Positions 1 through 9,247 of a DNA stretch of 34,007 bases are shown here, piece after piece. The position numbers and the translations under genes are program-made. How positions within the stretch are numbered: the stretch's first letter is position 1; each line of letters starts with the position of its first letter. Under the pieces are notes generated by a model. It did not search any database, was not told the DNA's origin, and saw only the letters and a list, made by a program, of their open reading frames with translations. The DNA lies in assembly GCA_024222685.1 (NCBI GenBank), contig JAAEOZ010000274.1:1-34007 (forward strand), written 5' to 3'. Source of the stretch: Gammaproteobacteria bacterium (GTDB lineage: Bacteria > Pseudomonadota > Gammaproteobacteria > GCA-001735895).

Positions 1-363
1 AATCTGTGTGCGGTCATCCAGATAAGTCTCGAAGGGACCTAGTCCGTATACATTAGCGATCAGAGCATTAAAGTCATTGCGAGGTTGATCGGTATAAACA
101 ATACTGACCGGAAGATCAGGTGATCGTTTGTGAACAGCTTCTATGCTTTTAGTTATCATTCCAAGCGAAGTCCCTGCATCGGCACAACCCATGTCCGACA
201 GAGTAAATCCATTTTGTAGCGTACTGTCGGGCAACTCATTAATAGCCTTAATTACCATTGGCGTCGCAGCATCGATGACATGTTTAGCGCCGATAGTGGC
301 CAGCGAATACAGGCCACCACCACTCATAGTAATACCTTCAGATTGCGCCTTCGAAACAGCCAT
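1..363 (-). CDS. SABATH-family SAM-dependent carboxyl methyltransferase (3' end missing)
   Basis: The reading frame stays open from an ATG at 363 to the window edge, giving the first 121 residues. A purine-rich GGGGGAA lies just upstream of the ATG. The protein resembles the N-terminus of the SABATH (Methyltransf_7) family, whose plant members methylate carboxyl groups of salicylate, jasmonate or indole-acetate using S-adenosylmethionine. Three family landmarks appear in order: a Met-Ser-Gly-Gly-Gly start followed by a Tyr-Ser pair (residues 13-20), the SAM-binding 'SDMGCADAG' (56-64, compare plant 'ADLGCSSGP'), and 'YTDQPRNDFNAL' (90-101, compare plant 'LNDLPGNDFN'). The gene begins 32 bp after lpxB on the same strand and is probably the last known member of the gnnA-gnnB-lpxB transcript. 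The substrate cannot be deduced; substrate-contacting residues lie mostly in the missing part. I am sure of the family, not of the function. Confidence 0.8.
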   Translation of the reverse strand, partial: MAVSKAQSEGITMSGGGLYSLATIGAKHVIDAATPMVIKAINELPDSTLQNGFTLSDMGCADAGTSLGMITKSIEAVHKRSPDLPVSIVYTDQPRNDFNALIANVYGLGPFETYLDDRTQI

Positions 364-395
364 TATTCCCCCTTATGTTGACTGGTTGTAAACTA

Positions 396-1535
396 CTACT
401 TATTGATAAACGATAATACAAGCCTGGCCATATTTTCGGAACCACAACCGTCGCCCAGATTTGATTTCACTTCACAAAGCCCCTGTTTAAGCTCAGTTGC
501 ATATTGCTTCTGGTCTAATATTTTCAAAATCTCTTTACTGATATTGTTTACCGTAGCTCTATCCTGCACAAACTCCTGAACGATTTGGCGCCCTGCGACG
601 ATATTTACGAGGCCTATGTAGGGAATATTGATTAAGCGGCTCATAATTTGATACGAAAGCCACGACACTTTATAAATAATACACATAGGGATTTTGAGTA
701 GTGCTATCTCCAGTGTAACAGTTCCAGAGCAGGAAATTATTGCATCGCAACAGGAAATGACATCATAGATATCATCACGAGTAAGCAATATATCGATACC
801 GGAGTTAAGGCATTCATCTTTAATCGTATCGAAATCCAGTGAGTTGGCTACTGGCATTACAAATCTTAAATCAGGTTTTTGTTTTTTTAGTTCAATAGCC
901 GTTTCAAATAGCAAAGGTAGCAGGTTTCTTATCTCATTGTTGCGACTACCTGGAAATAATCCAACCAGCTGGATTCCTGTTTCAATACCTAACCTGGAGT
1001 GTATTTCATCAGGGCCAGCCGTAGTGATTACCTTGCCAACAAGAGGATTACCGACAAAACTGACTGGTATATTGGCGCGTCGATAATATTCGGCTTCAAA
1101 TTTGAATATCACCGCCATGTGATCGATTAGGCGCCCAATTTTATGAATTCGTTTCGGTCGCCAGGCCCATACCTGAGGGCTGATATAGAAAAGAACTCTT
1201 ATTCCGAGTTCTCGGGCATGTGCTGCCATTTTCAAATTAAACTCTGGATAGTCGACCAGTATCAGCAAGTCCGGCCTGTTTTGCTCCATCGCCTGACGGA
1301 TAATTGCCATAGCTCGTTTGATTTCGCCCCAGTGCCTGATGACCTCGACAAGGCCAACAACCGCAATATTGGAGGAATCATAATCTAGTTCAACGCCAGC
1401 ACTTCGCATGGATTGACCACCCATACCGCTAAATCGGATATCTGCCTGCAGGCATTTGAGTTGTTCGATAAATTCCGCGGCATGAGCGTCTCCAGAAGCT
1501 TCACCCGCCAAAACCATCACATGAGGATTCGACAT
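396..1535 (-). CDS. lpxB: Lipid-A-disaccharide synthase
   Basis: This family GT19 glycosyltransferase joins UDP-2,3-diacylglucosamine to lipid X (2,3-diacylglucosamine 1-phosphate) to form the tetra-acylated disaccharide 1-phosphate of lipid A, at the inner face of the inner membrane. The 379 residues match the usual length of about 380. Visible motifs are the N-terminal 'LAGEASGD' (9-16), a central 'PGSRNNEI' and a C-terminal 'CSGTVTLEIALL' followed by 'PMCIIYK', all typical of LpxB. The ATG overlaps the stop of gnnB by one base (TGATG), so translation is probably coupled. In most relatives lpxB follows lpxA and precedes rnhB on the same strand; here it follows a sugar dehydrogenase-aminotransferase pair and is inverted relative to rnhB-dnaE. 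Its substrates may therefore carry a 3-amino, amide-acylated sugar. Confidence 0.96.
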   Translation of the reverse strand: MSNPHVMVLAGEASGDAHAAEFIEQLKCLQADIRFSGMGGQSMRSAGVELDYDSSNIAVVGLVEVIRHWGEIKRAMAIIRQAMEQNRPDLLILVDYPEFNLKMAAHARELGIRVLFYISPQVWAWRPKRIHKIGRLIDHMAVIFKFEAEYYRRANIPVSFVGNPLVGKVITTAGPDEIHSRLGIETGIQLVGLFPGSRNNEIRNLLPLLFETAIELKKQKPDLRFVMPVANSLDFDTIKDECLNSGIDILLTRDDIYDVISCCDAIISCSGTVTLEIALLKIPMCIIYKVSWLSYQIMSRLINIPYIGLVNIVAGRQIVQEFVQDRATVNNISKEILKILDQKQYATELKQGLCEVKSNLGDGCGSENMARLVLSFINK

Positions 1536-2623
1536 CAGGCTGACAAAATTGCCTCACACACAGTTTCAACCTGGGATTCACTCATTTCAGGAAAAACTGG
1601 AAAAGACAGACAACGTAAAGAAACTTCTTCTGTAACAGGTAGAGTTGCCTGTTCCGTGCCTGTAAATGCTTTTTGCTGATGCAGGGGTACTGGATAATAA
1701 ATCGCACAGGATATGTCTTTAGACAGAACACTCTCGCGAACCGCATCACGACCATCGCATAACAACGTATATTGATGAAAAATATGATCGCGATCATCAG
1801 GTATTGCAGGCGTTTCAAATCGACTACCTTCGAGTAGCCGGTTATAGGTTTGTGCAACACGTAACCGATTGGAGTTGTATTCGTCTATATACTTTAACTT
1901 TATGCGCAGAATTACAGCCTGCAACTCGTCAAGGCGACTGTTAAAGCCAATAACATCGTGATGATACTGCTTGCTACTGCCATGGTTTCTGTAAATGCGT
2001 ACGGTATCTGCTGCAGCATCACTATTTGTGGTTACCATTCCTCCATCACCATAGCATCCAAGATTTTTACTGGGGAAGAAACTGAAGGTGCCTGCGATCC
2101 CGAATGTTCCGGTTTTGCGCCCCTTGTAACTGCTTCCAACTGACTGGGCACAGTCTTCAACGATTGCAAGATTGTACTCCTCAGCAATAGCCACTATCTC
2201 ATCCATATCGGCAGCTTGACCGAACAGGTGAACAGGAATTATTGCGCGGGTTTTATCGGTGATTGCGGATCTGATCGCATCAGGATCTATATTCAGGCTA
2301 TCGGGTAGAATATCAACAAATACCGGGGTTGCACCGACATAGCGGACAGCTTCCGCAGTTGCAATAAAAGTAAAGGCGGTGGTGATTACTTCATCGCCTG
2401 GTTTGATACCTGCCGCGAGCAAACCAAGGTGCAGCGCATCGGTACCGTTCGCACAACCGAGAGCATGCTTCACATTCAGATATTCAGCGCATTCTTTTTC
2501 GAAGGCTTGCACATTCGGACCGAGGATATATCGAGTTTCTCCTAATGCCTGAATAATTGCAGCGTCAATTTCAGTTTTGAGTGTTTCGTACTGACCTTTC
2601 AGGTCAACCATAGGAATGGTCAT
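1535..2623 (-). CDS. gnnB: DegT/DnrJ/EryC1 aminotransferase, probable UDP-GlcNAc 3-aminotransferase GnnB
   Basis: This is a PLP-dependent sugar aminotransferase of 362 residues, a normal length for the family. The Schiff-base lysine is K186 in 'FSFFPSKNLGC', and the PLP-ring aspartate is D157 in 'VEDCAQS'; 'GTDALHLGL' (60-68) binds the phosphate. The family makes amino sugars from keto-sugar nucleotides. The ATG overlaps the gnnA stop by four bases (ATGA) and the stop overlaps the lpxB start by one base. The direct coupling of dehydrogenase, aminotransferase and lpxB recalls the gnnA-gnnB pair of Acidithiobacillus ferrooxidans and Leptospira, which makes UDP-2-acetamido-3-amino-glucose for lipid A. 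The specific substrate is inferred from this context; DegT enzymes for O-antigen sugars look similar, but they normally lie in polysaccharide clusters, not beside lpxB. Confidence 0.75.
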   Translation of the reverse strand: MTIPMVDLKGQYETLKTEIDAAIIQALGETRYILGPNVQAFEKECAEYLNVKHALGCANGTDALHLGLLAAGIKPGDEVITTAFTFIATAEAVRYVGATPVFVDILPDSLNIDPDAIRSAITDKTRAIIPVHLFGQAADMDEIVAIAEEYNLAIVEDCAQSVGSSYKGRKTGTFGIAGTFSFFPSKNLGCYGDGGMVTTNSDAAADTVRIYRNHGSSKQYHHDVIGFNSRLDELQAVILRIKLKYIDEYNSNRLRVAQTYNRLLEGSRFETPAIPDDRDHIFHQYTLLCDGRDAVRESVLSKDISCAIYYPVPLHQQKAFTGTEQATLPVTEEVSLRCLSFPVFPEMSESQVETVCEAILSA

Positions 2624-3564
2624 AATGTTCTCTTGATAAGGGATGTGATTTCAATTGCGGTTTCCAGTGCTCGCTTGCCCGCCTCTCCGCTTACAAGTGG
2701 CTTTCCTCCAGTCTTTATTGCATTAATAAAGTCGAGTACTTCAAGATTTAATGCATCATTATCTTCAAATGTACGTTCGTGATGTTCTACATTTTTAATG
2801 CCAGCATCGTTTTTTGTTTCCCCTTTTCGGTTTATAGCGACAATCCTGTTTTGAAAGTCTGCCGATAGATAAGCATTTTTGTGAAAAATGCGTATTTTTC
2901 TCTCGCGTTTCTGACTTATGCGATTAGCAGTAACATTGGCAACACAATTATTCTCAAACTCAATTCGAGCGTTGGCGATGTCGATTGTGTCAGATAAAAC
3001 TGATAGCCCGCTGGCAGACATCTTCCGAATCGGACTGTCAACAAGATCGAGAATTATATCAATATCATGAATCATCAAATCGAGAATTACGCTAACGTCG
3101 GTAGCACGTACGCTAAATGGTGCAAATCTGGTAGACTCGATAAATTCCGGCTGGTCGACTTCTTCCTTAATACCAATCATGACGCTGTTAAATCGTTCGA
3201 TATGACCAACCTGCAGAACCAGCTGCTTATTGCTGGCTATCTCGATAAGCTCTGCGGCTTCCTCAACAGTTTCAGTTATCGGTTTTTCTATTAAACAGTG
3301 AATTCCTGCTTCCAGTATGTCGCGAGCGATTTTATAATGCTGGCTGGTTGGCACGACCAGACTGATGGCATCAACCATCGATAACACATCATGATAATCG
3401 GTGAAAGCTATTACACCATGCTTGTCGGCAATTTCTCTGGCAATATCGGGATTCGTGTCTACCACGGCAACGAGTTCACATTCGGTACAGGCACTATATT
3501 TGTCCGCATGCCACCTACCGAGATGACCTGCACCAACAACTGCTAATTTGGGTAATTGAGACAT
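2620..3564 (-). CDS. gnnA: Gfo/Idh/MocA oxidoreductase, probable UDP-GlcNAc 3-dehydrogenase GnnA
   Basis: This NAD(P)-dependent sugar dehydrogenase would oxidise position 3 of UDP-GlcNAc, giving the keto sugar used by the next gene. With the ATG at 3564 the protein has 314 residues. An N-terminal Rossmann fold is shown by 'GAGHLG' (11-16), followed by the acidic 'VVDTNPD', 'VVPTSQHY', and the conserved 'EKP' (93-95); 'VGHIERFNS' is typical of the lineage found near lpx genes. I prefer the ATG at 3564 to the in-frame TTG at 3579 because a consensus TATAAT would start transcription close to 3585, leaving almost no leader for the TTG. The stop overlaps gnnB by four bases. The general function is clear; the exact substrate is inferred from coupling to gnnB and lpxB. 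Confidence 0.75.
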   Translation of the reverse strand: MSQLPKLAVVGAGHLGRWHADKYSACTECELVAVVDTNPDIAREIADKHGVIAFTDYHDVLSMVDAISLVVPTSQHYKIARDILEAGIHCLIEKPITETVEEAAELIEIASNKQLVLQVGHIERFNSVMIGIKEEVDQPEFIESTRFAPFSVRATDVSVILDLMIHDIDIILDLVDSPIRKMSASGLSVLSDTIDIANARIEFENNCVANVTANRISQKRERKIRIFHKNAYLSADFQNRIVAINRKGETKNDAGIKNVEHHERTFEDNDALNLEVLDFINAIKTGGKPLVSGEAGKRALETAIEITSLIKRTL

Positions 3565-3592
3565 AGTGAAATCAGGCAAAAATAAACGGCGA

Positions 3593-4181: not shown

Positions 4182-7100
4182 ATGGCGAACGATTTTGTCC
4201 ATCTGCATATACATTCGGAATTCTCGCTTCAGGACAGCACAATTCGGCTCAAGCCACTCATAGAGGAGACACGTAATCGTGGCATGGCGGCAATTGCCCT
4301 GACCGACCTGTCAAACATGTTTGCTCTGGTAAAAATGTTTAAGTCGGCCATTTCGAAAGGCGTTAAACCAATATTTGGTGCAGATGTATGGATTTATCAT
4401 GGTGACAGAAAGGATTCACTAAGCCGTCTGGTCTTACTTTGTATGAATGATATTGGCTATCTGAACCTTAAGCAGTTGATATCACAATCCTATCTGCATG
4501 GCCAGCAGGCCGACCGACCTGGGATCAATATTGAATGGTTGAAAGACAAGAGCGAGGGATTGATAGCACTTTCGGCCTGTCTGGAAGGGGATATCGGGCA
4601 GGCACTAAAAAGACAGAAAGTCGACCTCGCCGAAGAGTATCTGCAACAGTGGATGTCAGTTTTTGGTGATCGATTTTTCATTGAAATTCAGCGCACCGAT
4701 AGACCGTTTGAAGAAAATTATATCGACCATGCGCTGGACTACAGTAAACGCCTGCAGGTGCCGTTAGTAGCTACCAATGATGTCCGCTTTTTCGATAGCG
4801 AAAACTTCGAGGCCCACGAAGTTCGAGTTTGTATATGTGGCGGTTTTACTCTGGAAGACCAGCGACGCCCAAAAGTTTACTCACCGAAACAGTATCTACG
4901 TAGTAATGATGAAATGCTGGCCCTGTTCGAGGATATTCCCGAAGCGATCAAAAATACTGTAAATATAGCAAAAGCCTGTAATGTACGCCTGAAACTGGGC
5001 GACAACTACCTGCCGGACTATCCAGTGCCCGAGGGATACGATGTCAACAGCTATTTCCGGCATGTATCAGAACAGGGACTGGAACAACGCCTCGAGTTTC
5101 TTCAGGAACAACTTGAAGGCAATAATGTTCCAGATCGCCAAACCTACCTGGATCGGCTAAATCTGGAACTTGATGTCATCATTCAAATGGGGTTTCCCGG
5201 ATACTTCCTGATTGTCATGGACTTTATCGAGTGGGCCCGACAACATGCTATACCAGTTGGTCCTGGTCGTGGTTCTGGAGCAGGATCTCTGGTTGCTTAT
5301 GCACTGAAAATAACCGATCTGGATCCGCTGGAGTACGAGTTACTGTTCGAGCGCTTTCTTAATCCAGAGCGTGTATCCATGCCTGACTTTGATATAGATT
5401 TCTGCATGGATAGACGTGATGAAGTAATTGAATACGTCGCCGATCATTATGGGCGCAATCAGGTCTCTCAGATAATCACCTATGGCACGATGGCGGCAAA
5501 AGCCGTGATCCGCGATGTCGGAAGAGTGTTGTCGCATCCTTATGGCTATGTCGATCGCATCGCCAAACTTGTTCCTTTTGAGATTGGAATGACACTAAGT
5601 AAAGCACTCGAACAGGAAGAGGCATTACGCGAGCTTTATCATCAGGAAGAAGAAGTCACCATGCTGATCGATATGGCACTTTCGCTCGAAGGTCTGACAC
5701 GCAATGTTGGTAAGCATGCAGGTGGAGTGGTTATCTCGCCAAGCGACCTCACAGACTTTACCCCGGTCTATTGTGAATCCGGCGGCGGTGGCCTGGTTTC
5801 TCAGTTTGACAAAGACGACGTCGAAGCAATCGGACTGGTCAAGTTTGATTTTCTCGGACTACGCACGCTGACCATTATCGACTGGGCAGTTAGCTCGATA
5901 AATGTCGGCAAAGATGGCAACAAGCTTGAAATAGAACGTATCCCACTTAATGACTCCGCTACATTCAAGTTATTACAGGGATATCAAACCACTGCGGTAT
6001 TTCAGCTCGAATCACGTGGTATGAAAGACCTGATTCGGCGCCTGCAACCGGATAGCTTCGAAGATATTATCGCACTGGTAGCATTGTTTCGCCCCGGCCC
6101 ATTACAATCCGGAATGGTGGATGATTTTATTAATCGGAAGCATGGCCGCTCCAAAGTAGAGTATCCACATCCGGCACTTGAGCCAATTTTAAAACCCACC
6201 TACGGGGTTATTTTATATCAGGAACAGGTTATGCAAATAGCCCAGGTGCTAGCTGGATATACGCTGGGCGGCGCCGATATGCTACGACGCGCAATGGGTA
6301 AGAAAAAACCTGAGGAAATGGAAAAGCAAAGGGCTGTTTTTACCGATGGCGCGCTGGCCAACGATGTTGAGGCAGGTACCGCAACCCGTATTTTCGACCT
6401 GATGGAAAAATTTGCCGGCTATGGTTTCAACAAATCGCACTCTGCTGCATATGCGCTGGTTTCCTACCAGACCGCCTGGCTAAAAACTCATTATCCTGCA
6501 GAATTTATGGCGGCAGTGATGTCGGCTGATATGGACAATACCGATAAGATCGTCACCTTAATCGATGAATGTCGGGAAATGAAACTAAATGTACTGCCAC
6601 CAGACATTAACCGTTCCAGTTATGAATTCATTCCCGATGATAACGATACAGTAATTTATGGTCTCGGAGCCATCAAAGGTGTCGGCCAATCAGCCATCGA
6701 GTCTATTATCAATTGCCGTGAGTCAGGTGAATATGAATCACTGGATGAATTCTGTGAACGAATTGACTCAACGCGTTCAAACCGAAAGGTACTCGAGTCT
6801 TTAATTAATGCGGGAGCAATGGATTCTCTGTCTGAAAATCGAGCCGCAGTGCTCGCCCATTTACAGCATGCATTACAGGCGGCCGAACAAAATCAGAATA
6901 ATCAGGATGCTGGCATGATGGATATTTTTTCGGAGATTGTTGAGTCGCAAGCCGTAATGCCATTGCCCTGGTGTGAGCCCTGGGATGAGAAAAAACGTTT
7001 GATGCAGGAAAAAGAAGCACTGGGTCTCTTCCTGACTGGGCATCCGTTGAAAATTGTCGAGGAAGAAGTGAAGCAGATATCCTCAGGCAATTTTGCACAT

Positions 7101-7664
7101 TGGCTCGAAAAACTCAACACTGGAGATAGTTCAGATGAATCTGGCCGCTTTCGACAGAAAGAACTAAAAACCACGGTTTGTGGTCTGGTTGTCGATATTC
7201 GCATGAAGAACAACTTTAACGGCAGGGAAGCGTTTGTCACGCTAGACGACCGTAGTGGTCGAATTGATGTGCGTGTCTCTCCGAGCTTATTACAGGAGGT
7301 CGAAAGTCTGCTACAGAAGGATAATATCTGGGTGGTTGAGGGTGGTATTGCATATGACGATTTTAACAATGGTATAAAGATTCGTGCCAGGAGTGTCTGG
7401 CTGCTGGATGAGTATCGAGAGAAAAATGCGCGCGCGTTGCATATCACACTCAATGGTGAGTCAGACCATGAAATCGATCAGTTGATAGCAACGCTTGATC
7501 AGTACGGCGATACGTCTAAATTACCGTTGATTGTCCATGCCCAGGACAATGGCTACCTATATCAATTGCGTACAAATAGCAAGTGGTCCATTTCAATTTG
7601 TGAGCAATGTCTACTTTCCTTAAATAAGCATCTTGATATCAATCAATTCCATGTGGAATACTAG
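4182..7664 (+). CDS. dnaE: DNA polymerase III alpha subunit
   Basis: This is the catalytic subunit of the replicative polymerase. Its 1160 residues equal the E. coli protein. An N-terminal PHP domain begins with 'FVHLHIHSEFSL' (5-16). The polymerase palm contains 'GPGRGSGAGSLVAY' and 'PDFDIDFC' with catalytic D404 and D406, and 'VKFDFLG' with D556. Later come a helix-hairpin-helix region, the internal clamp-binding segment around 'GMMDIF', and an OB-fold with 'TVCGLVVDIR'. It starts immediately after the rnhB stop. In most relatives accA follows dnaE; here accA lies about 15 kb further on, and a lipoprotein gene follows instead. Confidence 0.98.
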   Translation: MANDFVHLHIHSEFSLQDSTIRLKPLIEETRNRGMAAIALTDLSNMFALVKMFKSAISKGVKPIFGADVWIYHGDRKDSLSRLVLLCMNDIGYLNLKQLISQSYLHGQQADRPGINIEWLKDKSEGLIALSACLEGDIGQALKRQKVDLAEEYLQQWMSVFGDRFFIEIQRTDRPFEENYIDHALDYSKRLQVPLVATNDVRFFDSENFEAHEVRVCICGGFTLEDQRRPKVYSPKQYLRSNDEMLALFEDIPEAIKNTVNIAKACNVRLKLGDNYLPDYPVPEGYDVNSYFRHVSEQGLEQRLEFLQEQLEGNNVPDRQTYLDRLNLELDVIIQMGFPGYFLIVMDFIEWARQHAIPVGPGRGSGAGSLVAYALKITDLDPLEYELLFERFLNPERVSMPDFDIDFCMDRRDEVIEYVADHYGRNQVSQIITYGTMAAKAVIRDVGRVLSHPYGYVDRIAKLVPFEIGMTLSKALEQEEALRELYHQEEEVTMLIDMALSLEGLTRNVGKHAGGVVISPSDLTDFTPVYCESGGGGLVSQFDKDDVEAIGLVKFDFLGLRTLTIIDWAVSSINVGKDGNKLEIERIPLNDSATFKLLQGYQTTAVFQLESRGMKDLIRRLQPDSFEDIIALVALFRPGPLQSGMVDDFINRKHGRSKVEYPHPALEPILKPTYGVILYQEQVMQIAQVLAGYTLGGADMLRRAMGKKKPEEMEKQRAVFTDGALANDVEAGTATRIFDLMEKFAGYGFNKSHSAAYALVSYQTAWLKTHYPAEFMAAVMSADMDNTDKIVTLIDECREMKLNVLPPDINRSSYEFIPDDNDTVIYGLGAIKGVGQSAIESIINCRESGEYESLDEFCERIDSTRSNRKVLESLINAGAMDSLSENRAAVLAHLQHALQAAEQNQNNQDAGMMDIFSEIVESQAVMPLPWCEPWDEKKRLMQEKEALGLFLTGHPLKIVEEEVKQISSGNFAHWLEKLNTGDSSDESGRFRQKELKTTVCGLVVDIRMKNNFNGREAFVTLDDRSGRIDVRVSPSLLQEVESLLQKDNIWVVEGGIAYDDFNNGIKIRARSVWLLDEYREKNARALHITLNGESDHEIDQLIATLDQYGDTSKLPLIVHAQDNGYLYQLRTNSKWSISICEQCLLSLNKHLDINQFHVEY

Positions 7665-7695
7665 CGTTTGAAACTCCAGCATTGTGAGGAATATA

Positions 7696-8499
7696 ATGAA
7701 TACAACTTTTAAAATGGTTTTAATACTATTGTTTGGCGCGATGATCAATGCCTGTGGTAGTAGTGGCGGCGGAGGTAGTGACGACCCCGATGATGCAACT
7801 ATAGAAGCAGCAAACGCAAAAAGTCTGGGTATTACGGCAATGGAAGGTGCCAGACAGGCTGTGGATAATGAGAACAATTCTTCGGCAATTCCTCTTCCAA
7901 GGGCTGCGCTCAGAATGGCATTAATTCCGGTTGATATCCCGAACTTCTGTACTTCCGGTTCGGTGACAGCGGATGCTACACAAACTTCATCCACAATTAA
8001 CTTTAATATGTGCGCTTATGGAGGTGCGTTTGGAATAGTGGCCGATGGGACAGTAGTTACCCAAACCAGTACTTCAGGCAACATCACTACCATAACTACC
8101 GATTACCAGGATTTCACCGTTACGTCCAATGGTACGACTCAAACTGTAGATTTTAGCTCTGTGTGTACAGTCAATACCTCCACTTCAGATGTTTCCTGCA
8201 CATTCAGCTCCGACGCTCTCGGACTAGATGGTTCGACTACCTATGGTGTTTCGAATGCATCTGTGTCGGGTGACGATACCAGCGGCTGGGATGTTTCCGT
8301 ATCGGTTGATGGTCCTTCAGGTACTATCACACTCGAAACCACTCAGCCGATATTATTCGACTGCGCTGGAGGTTATCCTAGTTCAGGGGTGATTGTGTTT
8401 ACCGACGCCGATGGTGTAGAAGTAACTGTTACGTTTATCGATTGTAATTCCTTTTCAGTCAGTTACTCGGGTACTTCTGAGGTTTATACCTACAATTAA
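7696..8499 (+). CDS. Predicted lipoprotein of unknown function
   Basis: I do not recognise a family. The start is the ATG at 7696, preceded by GAGG at a good distance; an upstream in-frame GTG (7684) is less likely. The 267-residue protein has a lipoprotein signal: a hydrophobic stretch (8-17) and lipobox Ile-Asn-Ala-Cys with the lipidated cysteine at 20. The residue after the cysteine is Gly, which suggests outer-membrane sorting. A Gly/Ser/Asp linker follows (about 21-33). The rest is rich in Ser, Thr, Val and Asp with alternating polar/hydrophobic pattern and several cysteines ('NFCTSG', 'SSVCTVN', 'VSCTFSS', 'LFDCAGG', 'FIDCNSF'), suggesting a disulphide-stabilised beta-rich secreted domain. 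It stands alone between dnaE and a strong terminator. Confidence 0.8.
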   Translation: MNTTFKMVLILLFGAMINACGSSGGGGSDDPDDATIEAANAKSLGITAMEGARQAVDNENNSSAIPLPRAALRMALIPVDIPNFCTSGSVTADATQTSSTINFNMCAYGGAFGIVADGTVVTQTSTSGNITTITTDYQDFTVTSNGTTQTVDFSSVCTVNTSTSDVSCTFSSDALGLDGSTTYGVSNASVSGDDTSGWDVSVSVDGPSGTITLETTQPILFDCAGGYPSSGVIVFTDADGVEVTVTFIDCNSFSVSYSGTSEVYTYN

Positions 8500-8526
8500 A
8501 TCTGGTACTCAGGTATATTAAATAAA

Positions 8527-8553
8527 GGCCCCGATTCTGTCGGGGCTTTTTTT
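8527..8553 (+). terminator. Rho-independent terminator after the lipoprotein gene
   Basis: A perfect 7-bp GC-rich stem (GCCCCGA / TCGGGGC, 8528-8534 with 8540-8546) has a 5-base loop and is followed by seven T residues. It ends the rnhB-dnaE-lipoprotein direction and may also act weakly on the opposing mupP transcript. Confidence 0.9.
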
Positions 8554-8593
8554 GTGGCCGAACTCCCAGCCAGTATTATCACAAAACAACCGA

Positions 8594-9247
8594 TTAACAG
8601 GACAATAAACAGTGATCGAGCAGCTCGCGCGGATGATTAATAATACCGTCAGCCTTCCAGTCCTGTAAGTTGGTGTCCGGCTCGATATAACCATAGGCTG
8701 CAATCACTGTTTTCATACCAGCAGCATTTCCAGCAATCATATCTCTTTGATCATCCCCTAGATAAATGCATTGCTGGCAATCAATTCCAAGCTTATCGGC
8801 GGCAACCTGAAGTGGCATGGGATGCGGTTTACGATACTCCAGCGTATCCCCGCAAATCACTACAGGGCTGCGGAGGTTTAATTGCTCCAATAACGGAGTA
8901 GTGAGCCATTCCGGCTTATTGGTGACGATTCCCCAGTTAATGTGGTTATCTTGCAGCCAACGGAGAATTTCTTCAAAGCCGTCAAACAGTACTGAGTTGT
9001 CTGCTACTATTTCTCGATAATGTTGCAGATAGCGCAGTCGCAAAGGTTCTATTTCCAGTTCATCGACATGTTCGCCAAACCCCAGTTGTGTCAATACCAG
9101 GCCCCCCCGCGAAACATACGGGCGTATTGACTCTAGAGGAAGTGGTGCGAAGCCTTCTTCGACCAGCAGATTATTTAAAGCACCGCCCATATCAGGTGCT
9201 GTGTCGACGAGCGTACCATCGAGGTCGAACAATACTGCTTTTATCAT
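8594..9247 (-). CDS. mupP: HAD-IA phosphatase, Gph-like, probable MupP (MurNAc-6-phosphate phosphatase)
   Basis: This HAD hydrolase is annotated in many genomes as phosphoglycolate phosphatase. With the ATG at 9247, which overlaps the ubiG stop by four bases (ATGA), it has 217 residues; another in-frame ATG at 9259 would add four. Motif I 'FDLDGTLVDT' (7-16) holds nucleophile D8 and acid D10, motif II is in 'GIVTNKP', and motif IV is 'YLGDDQRDMIAG'. In Pseudomonas the gene in this exact position, after mtaD-ubiG, is MupP, which dephosphorylates N-acetylmuramate 6-phosphate in peptidoglycan recycling toward UDP-MurNAc. I use that name on the strength of the conserved neighbourhood; sequence alone cannot exclude phosphoglycolate as substrate. 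Confidence 0.8.
   Translation of the reverse strand: MIKAVLFDLDGTLVDTAPDMGGALNNLLVEEGFAPLPLESIRPYVSRGGLVLTQLGFGEHVDELEIEPLRLRYLQHYREIVADNSVLFDGFEEILRWLQDNHINWGIVTNKPEWLTTPLLEQLNLRSPVVICGDTLEYRKPHPMPLQVAADKLGIDCQQCIYLGDDQRDMIAGNAAGMKTVIAAYGYIEPDTNLQDWKADGIINHPRELLDHCLLSC

Follow-up and report, generated by a model that had tools for sequence, protein, structure and literature searches.

An uncharacterised, sporadic bacterial SABATH methyltransferase subfamily, encoded behind lpxB in one genus and beside TakP-type TRAP transporters in other lineages

To our knowledge, almost every SABATH methyltransferase characterised to date is a plant enzyme; the single bacterial one with a solved structure acts on fatty acids. 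Among the plant members are SAMT (1M6E), IAMT (3B5I), loganic acid methyltransferase (6C8R) and the caffeine synthases; the carboxylate anchor of the plant enzymes is Gln25 (SAMT numbering), and some plant members methylate nitrogen, not a carboxylate. For bacteria, the open-access literature returned a single enzyme, MmFAMT, all other papers being concerned with plants. This mycobacterial fatty acid O-methyltransferase (5F2K/5F2N/5F2O) is active on C8-C12 acids and on their 3-hydroxy acids (PMC9744835).

The window, that is, the whole stretch of 34,007 nucleotides that was analysed, is contig C274 of an assembly of 812 contigs (G000) and begins at the contig's first base. On its minus strand, an ATG at position 363 opens a frame of 121 codons that reaches base 1 without a stop. 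Based on this frame, on PF03492 and on full-length homologues, positions 1..363 (minus strand) encode the N-terminal 121 amino acids of a SABATH (Methyltransf_7) SAM-dependent carboxyl methyltransferase. The gene is truncated by the contig end, beyond which its 3' two thirds lie, and a search of the window's own assembly did not find the remaining part. The full gene, which the first-pass annotation had proposed to confirm, was read instead in two full-length relatives (L003 and L004) that are 81% identical across the fragment.

Being a truncated piece, the fragment alone falls below the PF03492 cut-off (25.8 bits, E 7e-6, against 29.8). The full-length homologues, of approximately 366-380 amino acids, exceed this curated cut-off across the domain, with 100-131 bits and E-values between 1e-28 and 1e-38 across some 300 residues or more (6e-36 for L003). 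A scan of genome contigs revealed 48 loci encoding relatives of the fragment, at 37-83% identity, and together with the full-length relatives these indicate that the match is not due to chance; NCBIfam holds no model for the protein. The landmarks of the family are in place, namely SAM motif I (D-x-G-C/A), the acidic residue after beta 2 and the SFY motif, with D57/G59, D92 and F130 invariant and residue 129 either Ser or Thr. An AlphaFold model of the L003 protein, built from a 25-sequence alignment, reached a pLDDT of 88.6 and a pTM of 0.89, and its top 29 Foldseek matches in the PDB were all SABATH enzymes, the best being 5F2N (TM 0.80/0.83, 356 columns). The Rossmann core and the alpha-helical C-terminal cap are both present in the model of this homologue, the cap region of the window's own protein lying outside the contig. 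The family assignment made at first reading is therefore upheld by the PF03492 matches of full-length relatives and by the complete fold of the L003 model, cap included. Thus, the window gene almost certainly encodes a SABATH methyltransferase, and from its family membership the protein very probably methylates a carboxylate.

The description of the gene as plant-type did not survive. The nearest solved protein by sequence and fold is the mycobacterial enzyme (5F2K/5F2N), with E-values of 1.6e-26 by phmmer and 9e-41 by profile, while the plant enzymes gave weaker matches (best phmmer 1.5e-15, SAMT 1M6E 9e-14; profile 5e-25). A plant origin of the gene is accordingly not favoured. MmFAMT shares with the present subfamily the SABATH fold (about 356 columns, TM 0.80-0.83) and a bacterial host, as well as the SAM motif, the GxSFYxQIxP motif and the Trp of xxWLS. 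However, the two are only about 25% identical, and the C-terminal motifs of the present subfamily (CPF, PTxRxW and GHxMDYVH) were not seen in the FAMT alignment. The plant enzymes share the fold including the cap (TM 0.68-0.83), the SAM-binding motif, the SFY motif and Trp151, but structural alignment gives only 16-22% identity. By profile alignment, hence by sequence equivalence and not by superposed coordinates, the plant Gln25 corresponds to Ala26, and SAMT Met150 and the active-site Gln154 of FAMT (the site of the 5F2O mutant) correspond to His150; both Ala26 and His150 are invariant in 27 sequences, across which the Trp151 position is Trp or Tyr.

The gene stands behind lpxB (396..1535, minus strand; TIGR00215 295 bits, PF02684 E 1e-92), which encodes lipid-A-disaccharide synthase. 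The earlier statement that 32 bases separate the two genes on the same strand proved exact, the spacer being 364..395 (minus strand); in it the purine-rich AAGGGGGAATA, with an RBS-like AAGGGGG, precedes the SABATH ATG, and no terminator-like site was seen in the gap. In the relatives these spacers are mostly of -8 to +30 bp, with a maximum of 163 bp. Upstream of lpxB lie a DegT-family aminotransferase gene (1535..2623, minus strand; PF01041 E 4e-124) and a Gfo/Idh/MocA oxidoreductase gene (2620..3579, minus strand; PF01408), so that the same-strand order is oxidoreductase, aminotransferase, lpxB, SABATH. The oxidoreductase is a probable GnnA, its best NCBIfam match being the UDP-GlcNAc 3-dehydrogenase model NF040723 (217 bits, below that model's own cut-off of 450). 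The aminotransferase, from its position between the GnnA-like gene and lpxB, is a probable GnnB for UDP-GlcNAc3N synthesis. Spacing and orientation suggest that lpxB and the SABATH gene belong to one operon. In lipid A whose backbone is 2,3-diamino-glucose, GnnA and GnnB are responsible for the 3-amino sugar (PMC8036547); the probable gnnA-gnnB pair directly upstream of lpxB (1535-3579) predicts that the lipid A contains 2,3-diamino-2,3-dideoxyglucose. Two members of the genus (L011 and L021), both of which keep the SABATH gene, lack this pair or have it in reduced form, and in three genomes of the sister genus g2 (L083, L085 and L086) the pair does not adjoin lpxB.

Within the genus, the window's gene order was matched in 24 of 31 genomes, one of them by a remnant only, and the lpxB-SABATH junction itself was read in 21. 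None of 10 genomes from two sister genera has the arrangement; the pair anticipated at first reading to recur in other genomes does recur, but within one genus. Complete neighbourhoods of relatives continue downstream with a reversed metallo-beta-lactamase/rhodanese gene, a NERD-domain gene and DctP-DctQ-DctM. On the LpxB tree the presence of the SABATH gene needs six changes, and in the SABATH tree the lpxB-linked copies form one clade, one contig-cut copy carrying no label. The simplest history is probably one gain on the genus stem followed by at least five losses, a count which on its own does not separate gain from loss. Two genomes show decay in place, with a remnant left between lpxB and the gene that follows: G011, with about 32 N-terminal codons (L050, 7995-8090; L076; L105), and G009, with a broken C-terminal piece (L073, 1221-1487; L108). 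In G006 and G023 a beta-lactamase-fold gene follows lpxB directly, with no SABATH trace between. As it was probably lost at least five times, the gene appears dispensable. Intact copies have a G+C content like that of their surroundings (42-71% across loci), and as the clade moreover spans the genus, a recent transfer into the window genome was rejected. Of the suggestion that the gene is a newcomer carried by the operon promoter, what holds is an arrival at the base of the genus; by now it is an old resident of host-like composition that has been repeatedly lost.

The gene is rare and patchy in its distribution. In survey genomes, the window's included, it was found in 4 of 369 across the class and in 4 of 398 across the phylum. 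The nearest relatives of the linked clade are unlinked to lpxB: L019 is its sister, followed by L025 and L033 with two Acidimicrobiales MAGs, and then by Granulosicoccaceae and others. The copies from two high-G+C Acidimicrobiales MAGs (L024, 1702-2823; L026, 4036-5163) are about 62% identical to the window clade and possibly represent a transfer between phyla. Another copy, from a 'Gemmatimonadetes' MAG (L034, 1409-2689), is nearly the same as those of the Immundisolibacterales loci L032 and L037, and its contig is possibly misbinned. No lpxB was found beside any relative outside the genus in the stretches read, so the association is not conserved beyond close relatives. After exclusion of doubtful mechanical ORFs in G+C-rich loci (L024, L103 and L128), the other neighbours included a class III aminotransferase (L019), an FAD-dependent amino-acid-oxidase-like enzyme (L052), an SDR-glyoxalase-PhyH set (L031) and zinc uptake genes (L027). 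Several of these partners are concerned with 2-oxo or amino acids, which is a hint, if a weak one. Tight operon partners were observed in L031 (SAR116; 5399-9080), with an SDR-glyoxalase-PhyH-SABATH row, and in L027 (788-5159), with a SABATH-znuA-ABC transporter row; in each, the SABATH gene and its neighbour share a 4-bp overlap.

Outside the genus, the gene most often neighbours a TRAP transporter of the 2-oxo-acid type. In 8 of 29 genomes, from at least four lineages, a same-strand DctP-DctQ-DctM operon adjoins the SABATH gene or is separated from it by a single gene; the operon is upstream in six loci (L025, L033, L035, L040, L043 and L044) and downstream in the complete genome G417 (L127) and in L029, where a PhzF-like gene intervenes. 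The neighbouring DctP is closest to 2HZK (TakP; 9e-77) and next to 7UG8, a ketoacid-binding protein. With roughly one TakP-type DctP gene per genome (31 rows, one gene being split in two), chance would give about 0.1 SABATH-TRAP pairs at a distance of up to 8 kb (16 kb out of ~4.3 Mb) against the 8 observed, and the adjacency is well beyond chance even when collapsed to four lineages. A TRAP operon of this type is likewise found some 2 kb past the SABATH gene in most of the lpxB genus. The orthologous TRAP is absent there in three of the five cases of SABATH loss, and the opposite pattern was never seen (Fisher p 0.06 when the window genome is included and 0.04 when it is left out; tree-based sign test p 0.25), these co-losses being too few for significance on the tree. 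TakP-type transporters are neighbours and not part of the SABATH enzyme, and they also occur without it: sister genera g2 and g3 keep TRAP and lack SABATH, and 6 of the 29 SABATH-bearing genomes outside the genus have no TakP-type DctP at the threshold used, which shows that mutual dependence is not strict. A joint arrival of the two in the genus was likewise not supported, as TRAP is found in the sister genera too. In G001, dctP is split, its two parts lying some 1.4 kb from each other as an insertion might leave them (L119, 6379-8868); the LpxB of this genome is identical to that of an Olavius algarvensis Gamma 3 record.

Read together, these observations agree best with an uncharacterised, sporadic bacterial SABATH subfamily whose substrate is a small polar acid, probably one belonging to 2-oxo-acid metabolism; from the lpxB operon the gene would gain its position and perhaps a promoter. 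We hold this account with even confidence. The link of the substrate to 2-oxo acids, suggested by the neighbourhoods of homologues, deserves slightly less. A single acquisition by the genus ancestor would have placed the SABATH gene after gnnA-gnnB-lpxB, where it would probably be transcribed by read-through from the promoter of that operon, with no catalytic role in lipid A synthesis. The enzyme would use SAM to convert the carboxylate of the acid into a methyl ester, and the TakP-type TRAP importer may bring in the acid, or its precursor, that the enzyme then caps. Extended to marine Proteobacteria as a two-part system, in which a TakP-type TRAP imports a 2-oxo acid or a close derivative and a SABATH enzyme, its carboxylate clamp being the non-plant pair Ala26/His150, methyl-esterifies it, the proposal becomes speculative and, in so specific a form, improbable. 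We know of no carboxyl-capping route of this kind described in bacteria.

In the best-surviving alternative the gene is a passenger of the promoter, and its methyl ester serves a purpose outside both lipid A and 2-oxo acids; the ester could, for example, be a signal for secretion or an aromatic acid rendered harmless. The vicinity of TRAP would then reflect shared habitat or joint transfer. The varied neighbours in other lineages and the retention of TRAP without SABATH in g2 and g3 speak for it, but TRAP adjacency in several arrangements and far above chance does not fit, and we consider it rather unlikely.

A role in the envelope or in fatty acid metabolism was judged quite unlikely. In it, the enzyme would methylate free or 3-hydroxy fatty acids, such as the acyl chains of lipid A, in the manner of mycobacterial FAMT, and the place behind lpxB would reflect this. 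The closest solved structures are indeed FAMT with octanoate and with 3-hydroxy-decanoate, the substrate range of MmFAMT given above (PMC9744835) would suit, and the link to lpxB persists throughout the genus. Against this stand the low identity to FAMT, the absence of the SABATH gene from lpxB-bearing sister genera, the losses that left lpxB in place, and the unlinked relatives that carry the same invariant residues with no lpxB nearby in the stretches read. When 19 distinct linked sequences were compared with 26 unlinked ones, the two sets had 74 identical positions of at least 95% conservation in common, and S8, G10 and I204 alone were specific to the linked clade; a retuning to lipid A should show more, and no sign of it is seen. 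The envelope-related target raised by the first-pass annotation is therefore disfavoured, both by these shared positions and by the TRAP transporter as the commonest neighbour. The sugars of lipid A bear no carboxylate before Kdo is added. Because relatives elsewhere lie more often beside an organic-acid importer, the function of the SABATH enzyme is likely to be unrelated to lipid A, and lpxB probably supplies position and transcription, not function. A trans-aconitate methyltransferase, suggested by an 887-aa neighbour of aconitase length, was dropped when that neighbour turned out to be DctM.

The favoured reading, a subfamily acting on small polar acids, has consequences beyond this locus. 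A conserved bacterial subfamily with a different carboxylate site and a transporter neighbour offers a testable substrate class, and it would widen the known uses of carboxyl methylation in bacteria. At the same time, a core envelope operon has carried along, through a whole genus, a gene that probably takes no part in the operon's pathway, and the case of lpxB and its SABATH neighbour cautions against deducing function from a single adjacency.
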